DNA of 48,173 bases from Quinella sp. 1Q5. GTDB lineage: Bacteria > Bacillota > Negativicutes > Selenomonadales > Selenomonadaceae. Where the stretch lies: assembly GCA_014764605.1 (NCBI GenBank), contig JACXWG010000004.1:1-48173 (forward strand), given 5' to 3'. The notes under the pieces were generated by a model. That model saw only the letters and a list, made by a program, of their open reading frames with translations. It made no database searches and was not told where the DNA came from. Within the stretch, counting starts at the first letter, position 1; each line of letters opens with the position of its first letter. Positions 116 through 22,973 of the stretch are shown piece by piece. The position numbers and the translations under genes were made by a program.

Positions 116-694
116 CCGCTTTGATGAATAATGCCGCCCGCGTCCGGATAAATCTTGCCAAGTTGAATATCGCTAATGCTTGCTTGAGAAACACCGAACG
201 AATCAGCCAGCTGAGTTTGTGTTAAGCCGAGGGGATTAGCTTGTATCGGACTTGTTCGTTGGTAAACTTTGCAAGAGAGGAATTTTCGCCTGAAGGTCTT
301 AAACCTGTAATGACGGCGTGTCGCTGATTATCTGAAGGCGTGCACCATTCGAGATTCGAGACGTGATTGTTAAACTTGTTGCCGTCAATGTGATTGACTT
401 GTGCTTTTTCTTCAGGGTTAGGGATAAAACATTGAGCTGCGAGCCGATGAATACGAAACGGCTTTATTTTCTTCTCTGTGCGAAGTTGAACGTACAAATA
501 GCCATGTTGATTGAGCTGTGGTTTAAGAATCTTCACCTTGCCTTTATGAAAAGATTTAACTCGCCCAAAGTTGGAGACTTGATAGCCGCTGAAGTCCTTC
601 CAAAGTTCGCCGACGAGGTCGTCGAGCTTCATCAAGGCATCGTAGGCGGGTTTGGCTTGTTCGTAACGGCGGGTTCACATTCTTTTTTATTCAT
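91..694 (-). pseudogene. HNH homing endonuclease with NUMOD4 and C-terminal HTH, frameshifted
   Basis: The central frame (635-222) encodes a NUMOD4 motif (LWKDFSGYQVSNFGRVKS) followed by an HNH core (VNHIDGNKFNNHVSNLEW), typical of phage-borne free-standing homing endonucleases. The frame closes early at 222. The expected C-terminal helix-turn-helix (LTQTQLADSFGVSQASIS, then YPDAGG) continues in the next frame to a TAG at 91-93, so a small indel near 235-245 has broken the gene. Upstream, a good ribosome binding site and ATG at 694 open in another frame (MNKKECEP), suggesting a second indel. The gene points against the phage genes, as expected for an intruding selfish element. HNH identity is secure. 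Calling it dead assumes that no recoding occurs. Confidence 0.8.
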
Positions 695-4550: not shown

Positions 4551-5002
4551 CGCCGGCACGATTGGTAAGCGAACTTGCGAGGCGGATAAAGGAGGTCGCC
4601 GCGCAGGTTCGCCTGCCTTTGGAAGACGACGAGCACTTAGTCGAAGTGGAAGTCTTGGAGAATTACCTGCCGGAAGATTTATTCGAGAATACAAGTTACG
4701 TGCCGTTCGTGTTGGTTGAATTCTTGGAGGTATCGGACGATTTAAAGGAAGGTTCGACGGCGCACATCGGGCTGACAATCGGCACCTATTCAGAAGAGGA
4801 GGACGGTTGGCTAAGAGCGTTTCATTTAATGCAGGTGATTCGGCAAGACTTACTTGAGAGGCGGGTCATAGCGAAGAGGTTCAGATTGGAAAGTGCCCGT
4901 TGGCAAGCCCCCGATACTCAGCCCGCGCCTTTTTATTATCTGGTCGCGGAATTGACCTTTAATATCTTTCAACCCCTTGAACAAATCGGGCAGGTCTGCT
5001 AA
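4547..5002 (+). CDS. Phage tail terminator / completion protein, putative
   Basis: 151 residues. N-terminal amphipathic helix (ARLVSELARRIKEVAAQVRL), a central strand pair with FVLVEFLEVSDD and HIGLTIGTYSEEEDGW, then FHLMQVIRQDLLERR and a final APFYYLVAELTFNIFQP strand. This helix-strand plan and the P-YY-AELTF ending match tail-terminator/gp37-like proteins. In P2- and Mu-like phages such a gene is followed by the tail sheath and tube genes. Here it is followed by a terminator and a damaged region. Confidence 0.6.
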   Translation: MTPARLVSELARRIKEVAAQVRLPLEDDEHLVEVEVLENYLPEDLFENTSYVPFVLVEFLEVSDDLKEGSTAHIGLTIGTYSEEEDGWLRAFHLMQVIRQDLLERRVIAKRFRLESARWQAPDTQPAPFYYLVAELTFNIFQPLEQIGQVC

Positions 5003-5013
5003 AATCGCAAGCG

Positions 5014-5082
5014 AAAAGCCGCCCCGCGGACAAAGGCAGAGGCGACTTTTCAGGAGAACGCCGCAAGGCGTTTTTTCTTTTT
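5014..5082 (+). terminator. Two consecutive intrinsic terminator hairpins
   Basis: First hairpin: arms AAAAGCCGCC (5014-5023) and GGCGACTTTT (5041-5050). Second: AACGCC-GCAA-GGCGTT (5057-5072) followed by a T-rich run to 5082. The second is a typical Rho-independent terminator. It would end head-operon transcription here and, with the opposite A-rich side, could also act for the minus-strand remnant that ends at 5081. Confidence 0.75.
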
Positions 5083-5470
5083 AGAAATGGGCGTCGAGGA
5101 GATTAGCGGCGCGAATTAAGATTTGTTGACGTTCGGGGCAAGGCTCCATTTTGTCAGCGATAGTAATGAGTTTATCGACGAGAGGGAGCGCGGGCAAAGC
5201 GGGCGTGGGCAGTTCGCTTACGGCAAGAACTAAGGCGCGACAAGCCTCCTCAAAAGACGTATTGAAGAATTCGCCTTCGAGCCGCTGATTATCGAACTTG
5301 TCATGCAATGCCTTTTCAAGCGTGGCGGCAGTCTCTTTGCTCATAAGGACGCTGTTATAAATGCGTTCGACTTGTGCGCCACTTTGACGTTCGACCATTC
5401 ACGCCCGCTCCAAGATGTCGCTGGTCATGCCGATTTTGGTCGTGGCGTTGCTCATGCCCAGCACGTAAAC
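5081..5470 (-). pseudogene. T5orf172 (GIY-YIG-like) domain protein, truncated and with a nonsense codon
   Basis: Two in-frame pieces match the start and end of one T5orf172 domain. VYVLGMSNATTKIGMTSDIL (from about 5470) ends ERA at an in-frame TGA (5401-5399). The frame then continues with MVERQSGAQVERIYNS, later EKALHDKFDNQRLEGEFFNT. A CGA-to-TGA change would explain the stop. The reading frame begins abruptly after a TAA at 5473-5471, close to the 58-bp repeat at 5499, so any N-terminal domain is gone. Such domains occur in phage regulatory and Bro-like proteins. It lies antisense, where sheath and tube genes would be expected. Confidence 0.7.
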
Positions 5471-5498
5471 TTACCCAATCGCGGAACTACTCGAAGTG

Positions 5499-5556
5499 CT
5501 TAGGCTAGTCAAAAAGAGCTTTTACAAGCTCCCGCCTTTAGGCGTGGAGTTTTTGA
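5499..5556 (+). repeat. 58-bp direct repeat, copy 1 (double hairpin)
   Basis: Identical over 58 bp to 7291-7348, with unrelated flanks on both sides. It contains GAGCTT-TTAC-AAGCTC and then CTCCCGCC-TTTA-GGCGTGGAG followed by five T residues. The CTTTAG-type loop and G-rich closing arm recall right ends of IS200/IS605 elements. It would also work as a terminator. The right edge abuts the surviving end of a tail tube gene and the left edge lies near the truncated T5orf172 frame, so it marks a rearrangement junction. Confidence 0.85.
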
Positions 5557-5614
5557 ATACTCGGTGAACGGCGAAGATATTTTCGATGACGTGAAAGGAG
5601 CCTTAGGATTATGA
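5557..5614 (+). pseudogene. C-terminal remnant of a phage tail tube gene
   Basis: The open frame entering from the repeat reads EYSVNGEDIFDDVKGALGL and stops at TGA 5612-5614, overlapping the next ATG as ATGA. The NGxD...LGL ending resembles the C-terminus of P2 FII-type tail tube proteins, and the place directly before the tail assembly chaperone is where a tube gene belongs. All codons upstream of the 58-bp repeat are missing. The resemblance is short, so identity is inferred from ending plus position. Confidence 0.6.
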
Positions 5615-5868
5615 TTGACTTTAAGAAATTGGAAGAGGGTTTAAATAAACTTAGCGGCTACGATTTACTTTCGCTTGAGCAGGAGGAGCGCATTGCTGGC
5701 AATACCACTTTGGAGCTATCAACGTCGAAGAGTTTCCAAGCGCGACTTGCGGCGAAGGCTTTGAATATGAACGTTCACGACCTTAAAGCCCTGCCGCTTC
5801 GCGAATTCAACGCCGTTTGCCTGCAGGTTTTCTCTTTTTTAAACGAACCGGTACCGCCGACGACATAA
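5611..5868 (+). CDS. Phage tail assembly chaperone, short form (gpE-like)
   Basis: 85 residues (MIDFKKLEEGLNKLSGYDLL to NEPVPPTT). The core SFQARLAAKALNMNVHDLKA followed by LREFNAVCLQVFSFL matches small myophage tail assembly chaperones that coat the tape measure protein during tail assembly. The ATG overlaps the tube remnant stop, with AAAGGAG upstream. Near its end lies a -1 slippery site that yields a longer form. The tape measure gene, normally next, is displaced by 1.5 kb of antisense genes. Confidence 0.8.
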   Translation: MIDFKKLEEGLNKLSGYDLLSLEQEERIAGNTTLELSTSKSFQARLAAKALNMNVHDLKALPLREFNAVCLQVFSFLNEPVPPTT

Positions 5869-5996
5869 AAAAAATCGCTCTCCAGCTGAATCATGCGGGC
5901 TGGAGCGATACTGATTTTTGGATGAAGCAGCCTCTTTATTCCTTAGGCGGCTGGTTGAAATGTATAAAGCAGATAATTAAAGCTCGCCGTCGATGA
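5611..5996 (+). CDS. Tail assembly chaperone, frameshifted long form (gpE-E'-like)
   Basis: A -1 shift at T_TTA_AAC (5838-5844) moves translation from the 85-residue frame into a second frame that runs 51 more codons to TGA 5994-5996, giving about 128 residues. The extension (KRTGTADDIKKIALQLNHAG, then W..KQPLYSLGGWLKCIKQI) has the 'plxxLxxWl' character of gpE' / gpGT extensions. Programmed -1 frameshifting in this gene is conserved in long-tailed phages. The heptamer is in the correct phase. The extension overlaps the end of the antisense HTH gene by 20 nt. Confidence 0.8.
5838..5844 (+). promoter_or_regulatory. -1 ribosomal frameshift heptamer TTTAAAC
   Basis: The zero-frame codons are TTT TTA AAC, so T_TTA_AAC has the canonical X_XXY_YYZ phasing. 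The downstream sequence includes a GC-rich ACCGGTACCGCC stretch that could pair, and a hairpin-like TCCAGCTGAATCATGCGGGCTGGA (arms TCCAGC / GCTGGA) about 35 nt beyond. Confidence 0.8.
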
Positions 5997-6885
5997 CGCG
6001 GCGGACGACGCTTTGTGGAAAACCAATCGTCTTAGCGATAATTCCTGCGCCGTAGCCTTGAGAGTGGTAACGATAAATCTGCTCGCGGATTTGGTCCGTC
6101 AGCTCCTTTTTCTCCTTAACCGGTTTGAAATCCTTAACCCAATCGGCGATGGTGGCGCGATTGATGCCGTAAATCTCTTCGAGTTGCCTAAGCGACTGTC
6201 CGGATTTGAAAGCGGCGATGATTTCCTGCTTAGTATCCTCGTCGACGCGCCGCCGCAATTGAATTCCCGCTTCCGCGAGCACGTTCTTTATCGTGTCACG
6301 GTTCAGGCTGAAACGCTCGGCCATTTGCCGAACCGTCAAGCCTTCGTCGTAAGCCTCGATGATCGCTTCCTTCAGATAATCCGCCACTTCAAGCGCGGGT
6401 TTGCCGCGTCGCGCCGGTTCCTTGCGCATTTCGCGGATAACGTAACTTATCGCGGCGACGCTCACGCCGTATTTCTCCGCTAACGCTTCGCGCCCGTGGC
6501 CTTCCACATACGGCTTGTATTCCGCCATGATTGCCGCTTTTACTTCCGGCGTCAACTTCGTCCGCCGCGTCGCGCTCTTGGCTATGCACTTTTGCACCGT
6601 GCCGATTGATACCCCGTATTTCTCCGCCAACGCCTTGACGCCATGCTCCGACGAATTAGGCACGTATTCCGCCGCGATTGCCTCTTTGACTGCAGCCGGT
6701 ACCCGCTCTTTGATCGGATGAATCTTCCCGCCTACATTTTTATACGTTTCGCCGTGCACGATTGATTTCATCACGTCCACGCTCACGCCGAACTTTTCAG
6801 CCAGCACTTTCAATCCACGCGCCGCGTCCCCGGCTACGTAATTTTCTCGGCAATAAATCACTTGCTCTTCAGTCAGTTTCCTCAT
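5977..6885 (-). CDS. Protein of six tandem HTH units (HNH-type HTH without nuclease)
   Basis: 302 residues, ATG at 6885 with AGGAGGATAGCG upstream. Almost the whole chain divides into six HTH units at roughly 1-60, 61-108, 109-165, 166-215, 216-260 and 261-302. Each has the form 'aI.aeY....g...LAEKYGVS..tI..vi'; examples are LKVLAEKFGVSVDVMKSIV, VKALAEKYGVSIGTVQKCI, REALAEKYGVSVAAISYVI, VRQMAERFSLNRDTIKNVL and LRQLEEIYGINRATIADWV. Unit 1 ends YKNVGG, like the HTH tail of HNH endonucleases such as the pseudogene at 91-694. No nuclease or recombinase motif is present. A multi-site DNA-binding protein is inferred. It lies antisense between tail chaperone and tape measure, downstream of a small cysteine-motif gene that overlaps it by 17 nt. 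Confidence 0.8.
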   Translation of the reverse strand: MRKLTEEQVIYCRENYVAGDAARGLKVLAEKFGVSVDVMKSIVHGETYKNVGGKIHPIKERVPAAVKEAIAAEYVPNSSEHGVKALAEKYGVSIGTVQKCIAKSATRRTKLTPEVKAAIMAEYKPYVEGHGREALAEKYGVSVAAISYVIREMRKEPARRGKPALEVADYLKEAIIEAYDEGLTVRQMAERFSLNRDTIKNVLAEAGIQLRRRVDEDTKQEIIAAFKSGQSLRQLEEIYGINRATIADWVKDFKPVKEKKELTDQIREQIYRYHSQGYGAGIIAKTIGFPQSVVRRVIDGEL

Positions 6886-7054
6886 CGCTATCCTCCTGTA
6901 ATGCCTTCAAAATCCCAAGCCTCTTTAGCGGCAACTCGCACATGAACGCCGACGGGCACTCCAAACATTTCCCGTATTTCGGATGCGTCTCGTCGCCCGC
7001 TAGACAGGCGTTTATCGGGTCGTCCTCTTCCGTCAAATTCTTATACCTCATCAA
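6869..7054 (-). CDS. Small CxxC-motif protein of the antisense cassette
   Basis: 61 residues if started at TTG 7054, or 60 from the adjacent ATG. AAAGGAGGGG lies upstream, closer to the TTG. The centre GKCLECPSAFMCELPLKR has three closely spaced cysteines plus an earlier ACLAGDE cysteine, as in a small metal-binding knuckle. The acidic C-terminus (EDSDEETD) overlaps the start of the HTH-array gene by 17 nt, indicating coupled translation. A related C..CP pattern appears in the product of 7330-7526. Function unknown. Confidence 0.6.
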   Translation of the reverse strand: MMRYKNLTEEDDPINACLAGDETHPKYGKCLECPSAFMCELPLKRLGILKALQEDSDEETD

Positions 7055-7290
7055 ATATGCGCCCCTCCTTTAAATGGTATCGCCCGAAGGCGAGCGGGCA
7101 TAATGTCTGATAAAAGAAAACAGACCGCCGCCCGCTAGCGTTGCAATCCTTCGCCAATGTTATCCTGCGGTTTTTACTTGCAACACTGTTCCTACTGCTC
7201 AGAACTGTTTAATCACAAGCCGTAGAGCGGCAGATTAGGATTTACGTCCGCCGGTACCTATCTATTCGCAGGTAACGTAGTCAGTTAAGA
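7055..7290 (+). other. Structured non-coding stretch upstream of repeat copy 2
   Basis: No gene is supported here. A nested stem is visible: GCGGGC (about 7092) pairs with GCCCGC (about 7133), enclosing GTCTG/CAGAC around an A-rich loop. The stretch runs into the 58-bp double hairpin at 7291-7348. Length (about 240 nt plus repeat), heavy folding and a CTTTAG-loop hairpin at the 3' end are reminiscent of the guide-RNA (omega RNA) end of an IS200/IS605 tnpB element without its gene. No TnpB reading frame is found, so this is only a structural resemblance. Confidence 0.3.
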
Positions 7291-7348
7291 CTTAGGCTAG
7301 TCAAAAAGAGCTTTTACAAGCTCCCGCCTTTAGGCGTGGAGTTTTTGA
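7291..7348 (+). repeat. 58-bp direct repeat, copy 2 (double hairpin)
   Basis: Same 58 bp as 5499-5556, same orientation, no mismatch. The left flank is the folded stretch 7055-7290. The right flank is the coding end of the minus-strand gene 7330-7526, whose last six codons lie inside the repeat. Together the two copies bracket 1.73 kb holding the tube remnant, the tail chaperone, the HTH-array gene and the CxxC gene. Confidence 0.85.
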
Positions 7349-7526
7349 TCGTCGTCGAAATAGCCGCATTCGCCGAATAGACTTTTGGGGCATCTCATGC
7401 ACTCGCCAGGGCAATCCGCCGGTATTCTTTCAGGGTGCAGTTCAATCTTCTCCCGACGCGCCGGCAACCCGTACCAATCGCAATACGGCTTCTCTCCTTC
7501 CAATGCTTTTAGGTAGTACCAACTCA
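7330..7526 (-). CDS. Small Cys-rich protein, C-terminus supplied by the 58-bp repeat
   Basis: 65 residues from ATG 7526, with AAAGGAGATGATAAA upstream. MSWYYLKALEGEKPYC is followed by a cysteine cluster ADCPGECMRCPKSLFGEC, a probable zinc or metal knuckle. The final DQKLHA is translated from repeat copy 2, so the native C-terminus was probably lost at the repeat junction. The start lies only 26 bp from the divergent tape measure ATG, so no room is left for a separate promoter. Transcription must enter from inside the tape measure gene. Function unknown. Confidence 0.55.
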
Positions 7527-7552
7527 TTTTATCATCTCCTTTGGTGAACGTT

Positions 7553-10500
7553 ATGAGCAAAACAAGAACTATCAGCTTCGTAATCGACGGCAAGGACAAT
7601 CTAAGCGGCGTTTTGGCTCGTGCCGTGGGCAACGTTAAAAAACTTTCCGACATCAACAAATCCTTAAACGCCAAAGCACTTGCTCAAGCGACCCGCCTTG
7701 CCAGTGCCCAAGCCGCACTTCAAAACCTCCACTCTTACCGCAAACTCCAACAGGCTCATCTTCAAGCTCAAAAGTCCTATCTGACTTTAGGGCAGAATAT
7801 GGGCAAACTCTTCGCCCAACGCAAAGCCGAGCAGTCGCAACTTGACGACATGCAAAAGGCTTATGCAAAGCTCAAGGACGCTTACAAGGCGAACTGGCGC
7901 AATATGGGCACGCAAGCCGCTCAGACTATGAAGGAGCAAATCCGCAATGCTAATCAGGAACTCAAAGCCCAAGCTAAAGTCATTGCGAATTTGGATAGGG
8001 CTTATGATTCGTCGTCGGCGTCCATCACAAAGCTTAAGGCGCGACTTGCCACTCAACAAAGCCAATTAACGCAGGCTCGGCAAGGATTGCCGGCGGGCGT
8101 GCTTGCCGCTCACGAAATGCAACTCCGCGCCCAAATCAACCAGACAACCGCCGCCCTTAACAGAGAAATCGCCGCCCTTGAACGTCGTAATCAAGTCTTC
8201 GGCAACTTCAGCCAGCGTCAACAGGATTTATCCAACGCGTATTCGAACATGCAAGGCGCACTCGATACCGCGCAGACGTTGATGAATCCTTTCAAAGACG
8301 CCGCCGATAATGCCATGACTTTCGAAAAGGCTATGAGTAGGGTTAAATCCCTAACGCAGATGCGCAATATCCGTTCGGGCAACTTCGCGCAGGTCGCCGC
8401 CGACATGAAAGAATTGACTGCCCAAGCTGAAGCCCTCGGTATGACGACAGAATTCACCGCTACTGAAGTTGCTCAAGCTCAAGGCTATTTTGGGATGGCG
8501 GGCTGGGATAAACAAAAGATTTTATCCGTCATGCCCACAGCCTTGGACCTTGCAAGTATTTCCGGCGACCACAACTTAGCGCGTACTGCCGATGTCCTTA
8601 GCGACATGATGACGGCTTTTGGCGTCAAAGCGGGCGAAGGTTACAAACTCGCGGGCGGCAAGGTCGTTGACGGCGCGAAATATTTCGGCGACGCTTTTGC
8701 TTATGCCGTGACCCAATCGAATATGGACAGAGAAACCCTTTTCGAGGCTTGGAAGTACAATGCGCCCGTTGCTCGCGCCATGGGATTAAGTTTAGGCGAA
8801 ACCGTTGCTCAGAATATGATACTGGCTGGCGCAGGTATCAAAGGGTCGATGTCCGGCACTTCACTTAGACAATTTTGGGTTAGGATGTCGGCTCCGCCAA
8901 AGGCCGCTGCTAAGTCACTCGAAGAATTAGGATTTGCCGCTAACGACGCCGCCGCGCAGGTCGCCGAAACTCAACTTGCTATGCAAGAGGCTGGCGTTTC
9001 GATGGACAGCGACTGGTTCACTAAGTTTGAGGCGATAGGAAAGTTTTATCAGGAGCAGAAAGCCGCCGGACGTGACATGACGGGTTGGCTTAAAGGACTC
9101 ACTGGACAAACGGCTCTCTCGGGTGTCATGAGCCTCTTTGAACCGGGCAAGCTTGAAGAGATTAAGCGTTATAAAGAAGAAATTGATTCGGGGTTTGCGG
9201 GCGGCTGGGCGGCTGATACCGCTAAAATCATGCGCGATAATACCCAAACCACGATTGACTACATGACAAGCGCATTGGACGCCCTTCAAAAGGCGGGCGG
9301 CGATGCTCTACTTCCTTCTATTCGTGGCATTGCTGAAAGTATCACTCCTTTAATCTCGTCTATGGCGCAGTGGACTAAACAGAACCCCGCTGTCGTCCAA
9401 GGATTGGCCGCTGTTGCGTCCGTGGCGTCCACCGCGATAGTTTCTATAGCTGGATTTTCCCTCGCTATGGCGGGCCTCAGATTCGCTCAGGCGGGACTTC
9501 AAACTGCGGGCGAACTTTTTACTTATTTAGGGACGAAGGCGACTGCCGCAAGGGGTGCAATCGTAAGGTTCGCCGCAACTGTAGGAACGGCTCTGTCGGG
9601 CTTGACGTTATCGGGCGCGGTCGCTGGCATGAAGGCCTTCGGTGCCGCAACGCTCGCGGCCGCCCGCGCAGGTTTAGCTTTTATGTTCACGCCGATTGGT
9701 GCTGCGCTTACTGCAATTGCCGCCGCCGCTTACTTTGCTTATCAGAATTGGGATAGAGTCTCCGCTGCATTCTCGACCCTAGGAAGTGCATTAAGTAGTT
9801 CGTTAGGTCCTGCCTTCTCGAATTTGGGAACGTCGGTAGGAAACTTGATGACGGCTCTTAGTCCTTTGGCGGGCGTCTTTGAAACCTTAGGCGGCGTGAT
9901 TGTCAGCGTCTTTGTCGGCGCACTCGGTACCGTCGGCTCTTTGTTAAGTGGTTTAGCTGTCTTGCTCACGGGCTTGTTTACGTCGGTTATCGAATTCGGT
10001 ACCGGTGTCGTCGACGCCTTCGGCAAGATTAAGGACGGCGACCTTTCCGGCGCGTTGGATTCTTTGAAAGAGCACGCCGCGTCTTCGGCCGATTCTTTTA
10101 AGAACGCCTGGTTAGATGCCGCCGCCGCCGTGAAGTCTGGACTGCAAGGGACTGATGCCGCCGTTCAAGCCCTGTGGACGCAACCTGCCCTTGACGTTTC
10201 AAGCCGCGTCGCCATGGGCGCAAGTGCCCTGCCGACCTCGTGGGGTCAAGTCGACGCGTCAACCATCGTTCAACCGATTGCTGACGCCTCGTCTCAAGCC
10301 GCTGACTCTCTCAATCAAGTCCAAATGCCAGCCGCCGCCACTGGTCAATCACTCCTGCCTTTGCCGCCCGCGATTGACGGCGCAACTAACTCTTCTACTC
10401 AACTTGCTACTGCTCTTCCCGCCCCCATTGACGGATTGTCCGCTTTGGGGCCTGCCGCCTCGTCGGCTGCTGGTGCTCTTGAAGCCGCCGCCGCTCGCAT

Positions 10501-10873
10501 TAACAGTATTCAAATCAGTGTTCCACAGGTCAACTATATTCCTATGAACATTCCCGTTGCTCCTGCTGGCAAGGGCTTTGCTAAAGGCGGCTTCGTCTCT
10601 TCCACAACTAACTTTTTCGCCGGCGAACACGGCGCAGAATCAATTATCCCGTTAAATCGTTCCCAACGTTCCTTTGACCTCTGGCAAGAAACCGGCGACC
10701 TTTTGGGCTTCAATCAAGGCTCTTCGCCCATTAATATCTCTTTGACTTTCCATATCCAAGGCAATGCCGACGTTCCTACTTTTAAAAATGAAGTCGTGCC
10801 CCTTATCCAAAAAACTTTTGCTGAACAACTTGCCGATTTCAATCAAGAACGCAGAAGGAGGTCTTTTGTATGA
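7553..10873 (+). CDS. Phage tail tape measure protein (TP901 family)
   Basis: 1106 residues from ATG 7553 (GGTGA upstream; TTG 7541 and GTG 7544 are in-frame alternatives). Order of regions: an Ala/Gln-rich coiled-coil N-terminus (about 20-230); a TP901 core (about 255-480) with MTTEFTATEVAQAQGYFGMA; hydrophobic helices around 610-740; a Ser/Ala-rich linker; and a C-terminal GAESIIPLN motif before the last 60 residues. It sets tail length and is threaded through the tail tube. In the usual order it follows the tail chaperone directly. Here 1.5 kb of antisense genes intervene. The coding strand is strikingly pyrimidine-rich compared with the head module. Confidence 0.92.
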   Translation: MSKTRTISFVIDGKDNLSGVLARAVGNVKKLSDINKSLNAKALAQATRLASAQAALQNLHSYRKLQQAHLQAQKSYLTLGQNMGKLFAQRKAEQSQLDDMQKAYAKLKDAYKANWRNMGTQAAQTMKEQIRNANQELKAQAKVIANLDRAYDSSSASITKLKARLATQQSQLTQARQGLPAGVLAAHEMQLRAQINQTTAALNREIAALERRNQVFGNFSQRQQDLSNAYSNMQGALDTAQTLMNPFKDAADNAMTFEKAMSRVKSLTQMRNIRSGNFAQVAADMKELTAQAEALGMTTEFTATEVAQAQGYFGMAGWDKQKILSVMPTALDLASISGDHNLARTADVLSDMMTAFGVKAGEGYKLAGGKVVDGAKYFGDAFAYAVTQSNMDRETLFEAWKYNAPVARAMGLSLGETVAQNMILAGAGIKGSMSGTSLRQFWVRMSAPPKAAAKSLEELGFAANDAAAQVAETQLAMQEAGVSMDSDWFTKFEAIGKFYQEQKAAGRDMTGWLKGLTGQTALSGVMSLFEPGKLEEIKRYKEEIDSGFAGGWAADTAKIMRDNTQTTIDYMTSALDALQKAGGDALLPSIRGIAESITPLISSMAQWTKQNPAVVQGLAAVASVASTAIVSIAGFSLAMAGLRFAQAGLQTAGELFTYLGTKATAARGAIVRFAATVGTALSGLTLSGAVAGMKAFGAATLAAARAGLAFMFTPIGAALTAIAAAAYFAYQNWDRVSAAFSTLGSALSSSLGPAFSNLGTSVGNLMTALSPLAGVFETLGGVIVSVFVGALGTVGSLLSGLAVLLTGLFTSVIEFGTGVVDAFGKIKDGDLSGALDSLKEHAASSADSFKNAWLDAAAAVKSGLQGTDAAVQALWTQPALDVSSRVAMGASALPTSWGQVDASTIVQPIADASSQAADSLNQVQMPAAATGQSLLPLPPAIDGATNSSTQLATALPAPIDGLSALGPAASSAAGALEAAAARINSIQISVPQVNYIPMNIPVAPAGKGFAKGGFVSSTTNFFAGEHGAESIIPLNRSQRSFDLWQETGDLLGFNQGSSPINISLTFHIQGNADVPTFKNEVVPLIQKTFAEQLADFNQERRRRSFV

Positions 10874-21883: not shown

Positions 21884-21911
21884 GCGGAAAATTTATTGTA
21901 GGAGGAACCGA

Positions 21912-22973
21912 TTGAAAATCCTAATCGTCAACCTTATGCAAATCGGCGACTTGGTCCTTACGACCCCTGTCTTTAGGGCTATCAAGTCTGCATACCCAGA
22001 TTCTTTCTTAGCCGTTGCCGTCAATCTCCAATTCGCCGACTTGGTCAAATTCAATCCCTTCCTCAATCGTATCTTCACCGTCGATAAACATTCTTTGAAA
22101 TCTTTCCTCCATACCGTGAACGATATCCGCAAGGAACACTTCGACTTGTGCTTGAACCTTAACCGTTCAGAACGCGCTTCCGCGCTGGCAGCACTCTCCG
22201 GTGCAAAGCGCATCTGCGGCTACGCTAAGCCCGGTTTCTCTCTCTTCTTTGATTCCGTCTCTCCTAACCTTAAGCGCGTCATCCATCAAGTCCAGTCCCA
22301 TTTCAAAGTCCTCGTCGCCGCCGGTTTTGCTCCGCTTCCTATCCCTAAATCCGACGTCTTCTTAGGCGATACTCACCTTAACATCTCCCTTCCTAATAAT
22401 ATCGTCGCCTTCAATGTCGGGGCTTCTTGGCCTTCCAAACGTTGGCTCCCGGAGTTTTTCGCCTATGTCGCCAACCAACTCATCTGCCGCGGCTTCACCG
22501 TCGCCTTCTTAGGTTCCAACGCCGACGCTCTCATCGTTAAACAGGTCACCAACCTTATTTCGCCTTCTCTTCGACTTCTCGTCTTTACCGGTAAGTTTTC
22601 CCTCCTGCAACTTGCCGCTTTCTTCGACCACTGCAGACTTCTCATCTCTAACGATTCCGGCCCTCTTCATATCGCCGCCGCTAGAAACCTACCTGCCGTC
22701 TCTATTTTCGGCTCTTCCCCTGTCATCGGCTTCAAACCTTGGCTCTATTCTCACTTCTTAATCAAATCCCCCGCTCCGTGTCACCCCTGCTACTTGCAAA
22801 ATTGCCCTCTTCAAGGTAAGGACTGTTTGCGTTGTATGAAATTAATTTCTCCAGAAGTCGTCTTGAAGTATTCACTCGAATTACTTTCGTCTTTCGATAA
22901 ACCTGCCAAAGACCTTCCGCAAATCCAAGGAGCTTATGATTGTAAAGTTATTGACTTGGCTAAACAGAATTAA
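21912..22973 (+). CDS. GT9-family glycosyltransferase (heptosyltransferase-like)
   Basis: 353 residues from TTG 21912, directly after TAGGAGGAACCGA. N-terminal LIVNLMQIGDLVLTTPVFRA and the C-terminal LLISNDSGPLHIAAARNLP motif are hallmarks of ADP-heptose:LPS heptosyltransferases (WaaC/WaaF/WaaQ family). These add sugars to the lipopolysaccharide core at the inner membrane. A cysteine-rich tail (CHPCYLQNCPLQGKDCLRC) may bind metal and is a feature of some family members. It is a single-gene unit between the prophage terminator and ligA's terminator. It may be a chromosomal core-LPS gene or a prophage-borne surface-modifying gene. The sugar and acceptor cannot be told from the sequence. Confidence 0.82.
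   Translation: MKILIVNLMQIGDLVLTTPVFRAIKSAYPDSFLAVAVNLQFADLVKFNPFLNRIFTVDKHSLKSFLHTVNDIRKEHFDLCLNLNRSERASALAALSGAKRICGYAKPGFSLFFDSVSPNLKRVIHQVQSHFKVLVAAGFAPLPIPKSDVFLGDTHLNISLPNNIVAFNVGASWPSKRWLPEFFAYVANQLICRGFTVAFLGSNADALIVKQVTNLISPSLRLLVFTGKFSLLQLAAFFDHCRLLISNDSGPLHIAAARNLPAVSIFGSSPVIGFKPWLYSHFLIKSPAPCHPCYLQNCPLQGKDCLRCMKLISPEVVLKYSLELLSSFDKPAKDLPQIQGAYDCKVIDLAKQN

Follow-up and report, generated by a model that had tools for sequence, protein, structure and literature searches.

A six-unit helix-turn-helix array without a nuclease domain at the tail-gene site of a Quinella prophage

Cbp1 is reported to dock three helix-turn-helix (HTH) units 5′ to 3′ along the CRISPR repeat and to alter transcription (PMC10883916). 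In a second report, the C-terminus of an HNH endonuclease is presumed to be its DNA-binding part (PMC12724721), and in a phage paper the expression "six helix-turn-helix" refers to six separate proteins (PMC7019070). In a literature search on tandem HTH arrays associated with homing endonucleases, nothing fitting was found among the titles listed. The locus described here belongs to Quinella sp. 1Q5 and was analysed as a stretch of 48,173 nucleotides, hereafter the window, in which one gene encodes the following chain.

5977..6885, minus strand: six-HTH array gene, 302 aa (open reading frame with ATG start, AlphaFold2, dN/dS)
6724..6879, minus strand: unit 1 (residues 3–54), HNH-tail type, ending TYKNVGGK
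6562..6711, minus strand: unit 2 (residues 59–108), HNH-tail type, lowest conservation
6415..6561, minus strand: unit 3 (residues 109–157), HNH-tail type
6247..6393, minus strand: unit 4 (residues 165–213), resolvase/HTH_7-like
6118..6246, minus strand: unit 5 (residues 214–256), HTH_28/HTH_23-like
5980..6114, minus strand: unit 6 (residues 258–302), HTH_38/Sleeping Beauty-like, highest conservation

The first-pass annotation had described this product as six HTH units with no nuclease domain, and both parts of the description are borne out by structure prediction and profile searches. In the AlphaFold2 model built on a five-sequence alignment, the window copy has 18 helices that make up six tri-helical units, located at residues 6–15/25–32/36–44, 64–73/80–90/94–105, and 113–122/132–139/143–154 for units 1–3, and at 169–180/185–192/196–205, 216–227/232–239/243–253, and 264–275/280–287/291–298 for units 4–6; far from most units lacking an HTH fold, all six are predicted to have one. 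The mean pLDDT is 75 and the pTM is 0.26, so the fold of each unit is predicted but the mutual placement of the units is not. Similarly, the copy from genome G057, 50% identical to the window copy, is modelled with 18 helices (6 × 3) at a mean pLDDT of 72. Pfam assigns HTH_28 (65 bits) and HTH_23 (54 bits), both above their cut-offs; the matches listed (25 of 61 Pfam families) do not include a nuclease family. Against the HNH family phrog_59, three stretches of the array are matched, the best of them at the tail of the profile (248–322), whereas a true HNH neighbour matches profile positions 135–315. The array has the tandem HTH tail of a free-standing HNH homing endonuclease, of U1/U3 type; a nuclease domain was not found among the matches listed, and the six tri-helical units use the whole chain. 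The Mu Mor/C late activators (PF08765) are matched at 34.6 bits (cut-off 24.9), with the best stretch restricted to profile positions 66–106 of 107, so the part before the HTH is uncovered and the domain is incomplete. Foldseek gives zero matches in the PDB at E ≤ 0.001 and 24 viral matches in BFVD at E up to 0.001, several of them unnamed. The predicted pI is 9.2–9.4 in all five copies of the array.

The unit starts are spaced 44–56 residues apart, and profiles made from single units pick up other units of the same chain: the unit 3 profile finds unit 2 at 6e-17, that of unit 2 finds unit 3 at 9e-11, and that of unit 5 finds unit 4 at 5e-11, while unit 6 is the outlier, with a best cross-match of 6e-5 by the unit 1 profile. 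Of the 200 shuffled sequences that served as a control, 14 were matched by at least one unit profile at the lax cut-off of 0.01. Conservation is uneven across the five copies. Unit 2 is the weakest, with 3 invariant columns of 50 and a length 6–8 residues shorter in three copies; unit 6 has 26 of 45 invariant columns, and units 4–6 together form the better conserved half, at 58–72% identity to the window copy. It had been proposed that the recognition helices differ between units, and the unit comparison agrees. Those of unit 5 (5 of 11 residues invariant) and unit 6 (5 of 8) are the most constant, and those of units 2 and 3 contain zero invariant residues, which suggests a fixed core site with a drifting edge.

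The unit profiles were also run over 987 stop-to-stop ORFs of at least 90 aa from the fetched loci, ten loci that duplicate array loci being left out. Matches were found in 33 ORFs. All six unit types are present only in the five arrays; the other 28 ORFs have one to three units, and the best profile for every segment in them is U1, U2, or U3. No segment best matched by units 4–6 was found in the other fetched ORFs of the genus. A crude motif test marked 19 of these 28 ORFs as HNH, and Pfam run on all 28 (E 0.01) gave NUMOD4 or HNH_3 in 26. The two remaining ORFs are L095:1567-2007(-), which encodes 146 aa with U1 + U3 and lacks a NUMOD4/HNH match, and L014:201-587, which encodes 128 aa and lies close to a contig start; each may be either a broken gene or a small array without a nuclease. 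Array residues 3–114 align with the tail of a NUMOD4 + HNH_3 protein from genome G013 at 46% identity (E 1.9e-15), the start of the array coincides by eye with the start of the HNH tail, and the tail of the L094 HNH protein has the order U1-U3-U3. From this homology together with the unit scan, units 1–3 and the HNH tails share ancestry. The motif YKNVGG at the end of unit 1, pointed out earlier as an HNH-tail feature, recurs in the HNH tail at L072:16212-17153. The direction of descent, probably from tail to array, is suggested by the many tails and few arrays. The earlier proposal that the array is derived from homing endonucleases is supported for units 1–3 but not for units 4–6, which are absent from all other fetched ORFs of the genus and resemble the HTHs of resolvase, transposase, and Tc1 type.

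Full-length nuclease-free arrays number five, in 4 of the 66 genomes of the genus: the window copy, a second one elsewhere in that genome, on contig C86 (62% identity), and those of genomes G004 (61%), G021 (60%), and G057 (50%). All five have six units and no nuclease, which speaks against the possibility that homologues are always fused to a nuclease or recombinase. A profile search of 189 genomes of the family in 30 genera, which include the 66 genus genomes and 123 others without an array, found no full-length array outside these four genomes, and an order-level search of the same number of genomes (189) added no further copies. In a phylum search with units 4–6, 9 of 398 genomes besides the window's own were matched, mostly over unit 5 and in frames of 65–113 aa (one of 236 aa); these matches are read as generic HTHs. 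Two pattern-limited scans of viral contigs found no relatives. The reading frame is open in all five copies, and dN/dS is 0.16–0.23 in the computable pairs (5 of 10), among which there is no G057 pair because dS is saturated. Between the C86 and G004 arrays, the differences by codon position are 19/10/48, so that the third position accounts for 48 of 77.

The gene lies in a tail module, and the neighbouring features are as follows.

5611..5868, plus strand: tail assembly chaperone, left neighbour of the array (phrog_3140)
7541..10873, plus strand: tape measure protein, right neighbour of the array (named by length, place, and conservation)
6869..7054, minus strand: small Cys-motif ORF (C-x2-C-P-x4-C, motif by eye), its 3′ end overlapping the array start by 17 nt
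7330..7527, minus strand: second Cys-motif ORF (MSWYYLKALEGEKPY...), its 3′ end entering a HEARO element; start picked to resemble the ORFs of C86 and G021
222–635, minus strand: NUMOD4-HNH_3 gene, broken where its HTH tail begins (Pfam)

In the window, G004, and G021, the array is antisense between the tail assembly chaperone on one side and the tape measure gene on the other. Thirteen chaperone loci, in 13 of the 66 genomes, were surveyed. The array is present at three; an antisense Cys-motif ORF without an array occupies the same site at two (G025, G038); the chaperone adjoins the tape measure at six (G061 by eye, G036, G024, G020, G017, and G013, of which G017 and G013 are apparently the same phage); and other content without an array is found at two (G007, where the contig ends soon, and G016). 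Another antisense ORF found at this phage site, L085:2024-2302(-), has a repeated DGYDRxGYD-type motif. A promoter-like site ahead of the array gene group was not found in 4900–7800, where 4 such sites occur against 2.4 expected and the sole minus-strand one falls inside the array gene.

A Cys-motif ORF stands directly upstream of the array in four of the five copies, with a stop-start overlap of 17 nt in the window and 8 nt in both C86 and G004, and with a 10-nt gap in G021. This coupling, together with the array-free antisense Cys-motif ORFs that G025 and G038 have at this site, would fit a two-part targeting device in which the array brings a co-translated Cys-motif effector, probably metal-binding, to a DNA site. 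Gene coupling, however, need not mean protein interaction; the G057 array has no Cys ORF ahead of it, and a HEARO element lies between the two Cys ORFs of the window. The Cys ORFs also lack a significant family: those of G025 and G038 match zero Pfam or PHROG families at E 0.01, that of C86 matches zero Pfam families, and those of the window have insignificant PHROG matches only. Such a device is considered unlikely, if worth keeping in view. L088:6394-6858(+) and L089:6293-6874(+), like the window ORF 6869-7054(-), lie antisense between the genes for tail chaperone and tape measure and encode a small protein in which C-x2-C-x4-7-C motifs recur (by eye); these two have no Pfam or PHROG match at E 0.01.

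Homing genes share the site as well. A NUMOD4/HNH_3 gene starts 2 nt behind the array stop in C86 and G004, and in G004 a second one overlaps the upstream Cys ORF by 8 nt. Together with the HNH-tail type of units 1–3 and with Caulobacter phage C1, where the array-like gp458 overlaps gp457, whose N-terminus carries an HNH-like motif by eye, this arrangement would fit an array that acts as the DNA-addressing or control partner of an adjacent HNH endonuclease, finding or sparing its site. An HNH gene does not directly adjoin the array in three of the five copies (window, G021, G057), however, the nearest same-strand one being about 680 nt off in G021 and 5.3 kb off and broken in the window; moreover, the array and the neighbouring HNH protein of G004 have recognition helices that look different by eye, and the tail of the C86 HNH gene is cut off close to the contig end. 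An accessory role in homing is therefore rated rather unlikely. C86 is a contig of 5,160 bases with a TnpB element upstream of the array, and its HNH gene (L071:4602-5156) is truncated at the very motif where the window gene 222-635(-) is broken.

The element that splits the two window Cys ORFs was identified as follows.

7140..7349, minus strand: HEARO (IscB-type omega-RNA), 128.6 bits against a cut-off of 83
5442–5557, minus strand: truncated second HEARO copy, 27.5 bits, below the cut-off

The upstream HEARO is part of a repeated element about 290 bp long (7059–7349), and the two copies have a perfect 58-nt stretch in common. An RRXRR/IscB gene is not found beside it, the genome's only RRXRR match lying at C39:4986-5507. 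An array that replaces IscB in a HEARO-linked system was considered and rejected: the four other array loci (2.9–3.9 kb each) gave no HEARO match at E up to 1, the short HEARO-like pieces near the C86 and G021 arrays flank a TnpB gene at both ends (in C86, TnpB by Pfam), and an element 88–94% alike is present on four other contigs of the genome. On the first of these grounds, the window HEARO is treated as a separate insertion. HEARO matches occur at 7 places in the window genome (6 above cut-off) and in 14 of the 66 genus genomes (13 above cut-off); an RRXRR (IscB) match is absent from 9 of the 14 HEARO-bearing genomes (MAGs are incomplete). Genome G027, with 24 HEARO matches against 5 RRXRR matches, would be a good place for testing trans-acting omega-RNAs. 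No literature on standalone HEARO/IscB was found.

The G057 copy stands apart, on a 17-kb contig in which no tail genes were seen; its two neighbours there are a CheX-like gene, so named by eye, and a heptosyltransferase. The latter gene has a counterpart in the window.

21900–22973, plus strand: heptosyltransferase, beside a tail-fibre gene (named by eye)

It adjoins the tail-fibre gene in the window, G004, and G021, and its relatives are 75% (G004), 66% (G021), and 60% (G057) identical to the window protein, against 45–47% in four other genomes. The orientation of array and heptosyltransferase relative to each other is the same in the window and G057; in G004 they are on separate contigs. 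Possibly the heptosyltransferase is prophage cargo that alters the cell surface, or else a host gene. The G057 locus looks as if a prophage had lost its intervening genes and kept the array, a reading based on one MAG that is 59% complete; heptosyltransferase homologues occur in 59 of the 66 genus genomes, so the neighbourhood may be due to chance. DNA common to the G057 array flanks and the phage loci reached 26.3 bits at best, a level also seen when the upstream flank was block-shuffled 50 times (mean 24.8, max 28.2 bits), and a candidate operator is therefore absent from this comparison.

The window prophage is itself defective, judging by its gene content: comparison with G004 and G021 proteins did not find a sheath gene and recovered nothing of the tube gene but its last residues (E about 0.01, in the right place). 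The gap at 5002–5611 contains a truncated GIY-YIG-type gene, 85% identical to residues 177–307 of the G004 one, as well as the truncated HEARO copy; the 58-nt repeat in this copy may have been involved in the tail-gene deletion. The decay of the surrounding prophage, the clear tail homology, and the poor conservation of unit 2 are what a non-functional relic of a homing-endonuclease tail would lead one to expect. A frame kept open in five of five copies at 50–62% identity, low dN/dS in the computable pairs, and units 4–6, absent from HNH proteins and yet better conserved than units 1–3, argue against a relic, which is regarded as very improbable.

The reading tentatively favoured, though short of probable, is a non-catalytic, sequence-specific protein that binds a long DNA site, most likely a regulator or silencer; DNA binding, one continuous long site, a regulatory role, and expression in the lysogen are what we infer. 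A free-standing NUMOD4-HNH homing endonuclease would have been the source of units 1–3: its tandem-HTH tail would have split from the nuclease and been joined to three further HTH units (4–6). The resulting gene would be part of a moron-like antisense gene group at a tail-module site that is also home to homing genes. The six units would probably lie along one long site, roughly twice the Cbp1 footprint by analogy, anchored mainly by units 1 and 4–6, with unit 2 close to being a spacer. The genes that the protein regulates or silences may be its own, those of the prophage, or those of related phages entering the cell. A more specific version, given rather little credence, has the nuclease-free array of six modules, with its homing tail, carry the Cys-motif protein to one long site for silencing or immunity; in the immunity variant, as doubtful as the version to which it belongs, the carrier genome would be spared neighbouring HNH genes or related phages. 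The favoured regulator would show a route by which the DNA-reading tail of a selfish nuclease becomes a separate, selected DNA-binding protein.

Compared with described proteins, the array is homologous in units 1–3 to the tails of NUMOD4-HNH endonucleases (phrog_59), but these have 1–3 units and no segments of unit 4–6 type. It matches phrog_323, the T5 D5 family, at E 4e-12, the annotation of D5 being DNA-binding and needed for late transcription; kinship with T5 D5 was rejected, the direct profile comparison being not significant (hhalign prob 17.6) and D5 having one unit-like segment by unit profiles. The first-pass annotation had called for nuclease-free proteins with at least four such units, and one was found, the hypothetical protein gp458 of Caulobacter phage C1 (UTU08144.1), which has 252 aa and in which the unit profiles pick out five HTH segments, one of them, the second, weakly (2e-3). 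The profile alignment with the array covers 225 columns (prob 96.9, E 1.7e-10), and no nuclease is among its 18 PHROG matches, apart from HNH families matched over single HTH segments. The gp458 gene overlaps by 4 nt that of gp457 (L108:365-1444(+)), which Pfam identifies as an RNA ligase and whose N-terminus contains a C-x2-C...HH...HH stretch. Unlike the array, gp458 has five units, is 21% identical, and belongs to a giant phage. WWT40160 of Staphylococcus phage PT1-1 has three HTH segments, with nuclease not detected. Nuclease-free tandem-HTH proteins are thus a kind already known, and the six-unit family of mixed origin is a variant of it.

Cbp1, the CRISPR repeat-binding protein of the Sulfolobales, resembles the array in consisting of tandem HTHs and nothing else. 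Its profile NF040595 matches array residues 171–288 at 65.2 bits, below the curated cut-off of 140 bits, and Foldseek pairs the array with PDB 2lvs, which we take to be Cbp1, at prob 0.97 but E 0.23. Unlike the array, Cbp1 is archaeal and has three units, and the match covers under half of the array. If the six units read one multi-turn site, the differences between units in HNH tails and arrays would reveal how HTH modules combine, and if long-site reading holds, the array would offer a bacterial equivalent of the archaeal Cbp1 that is simple to study by experiment.
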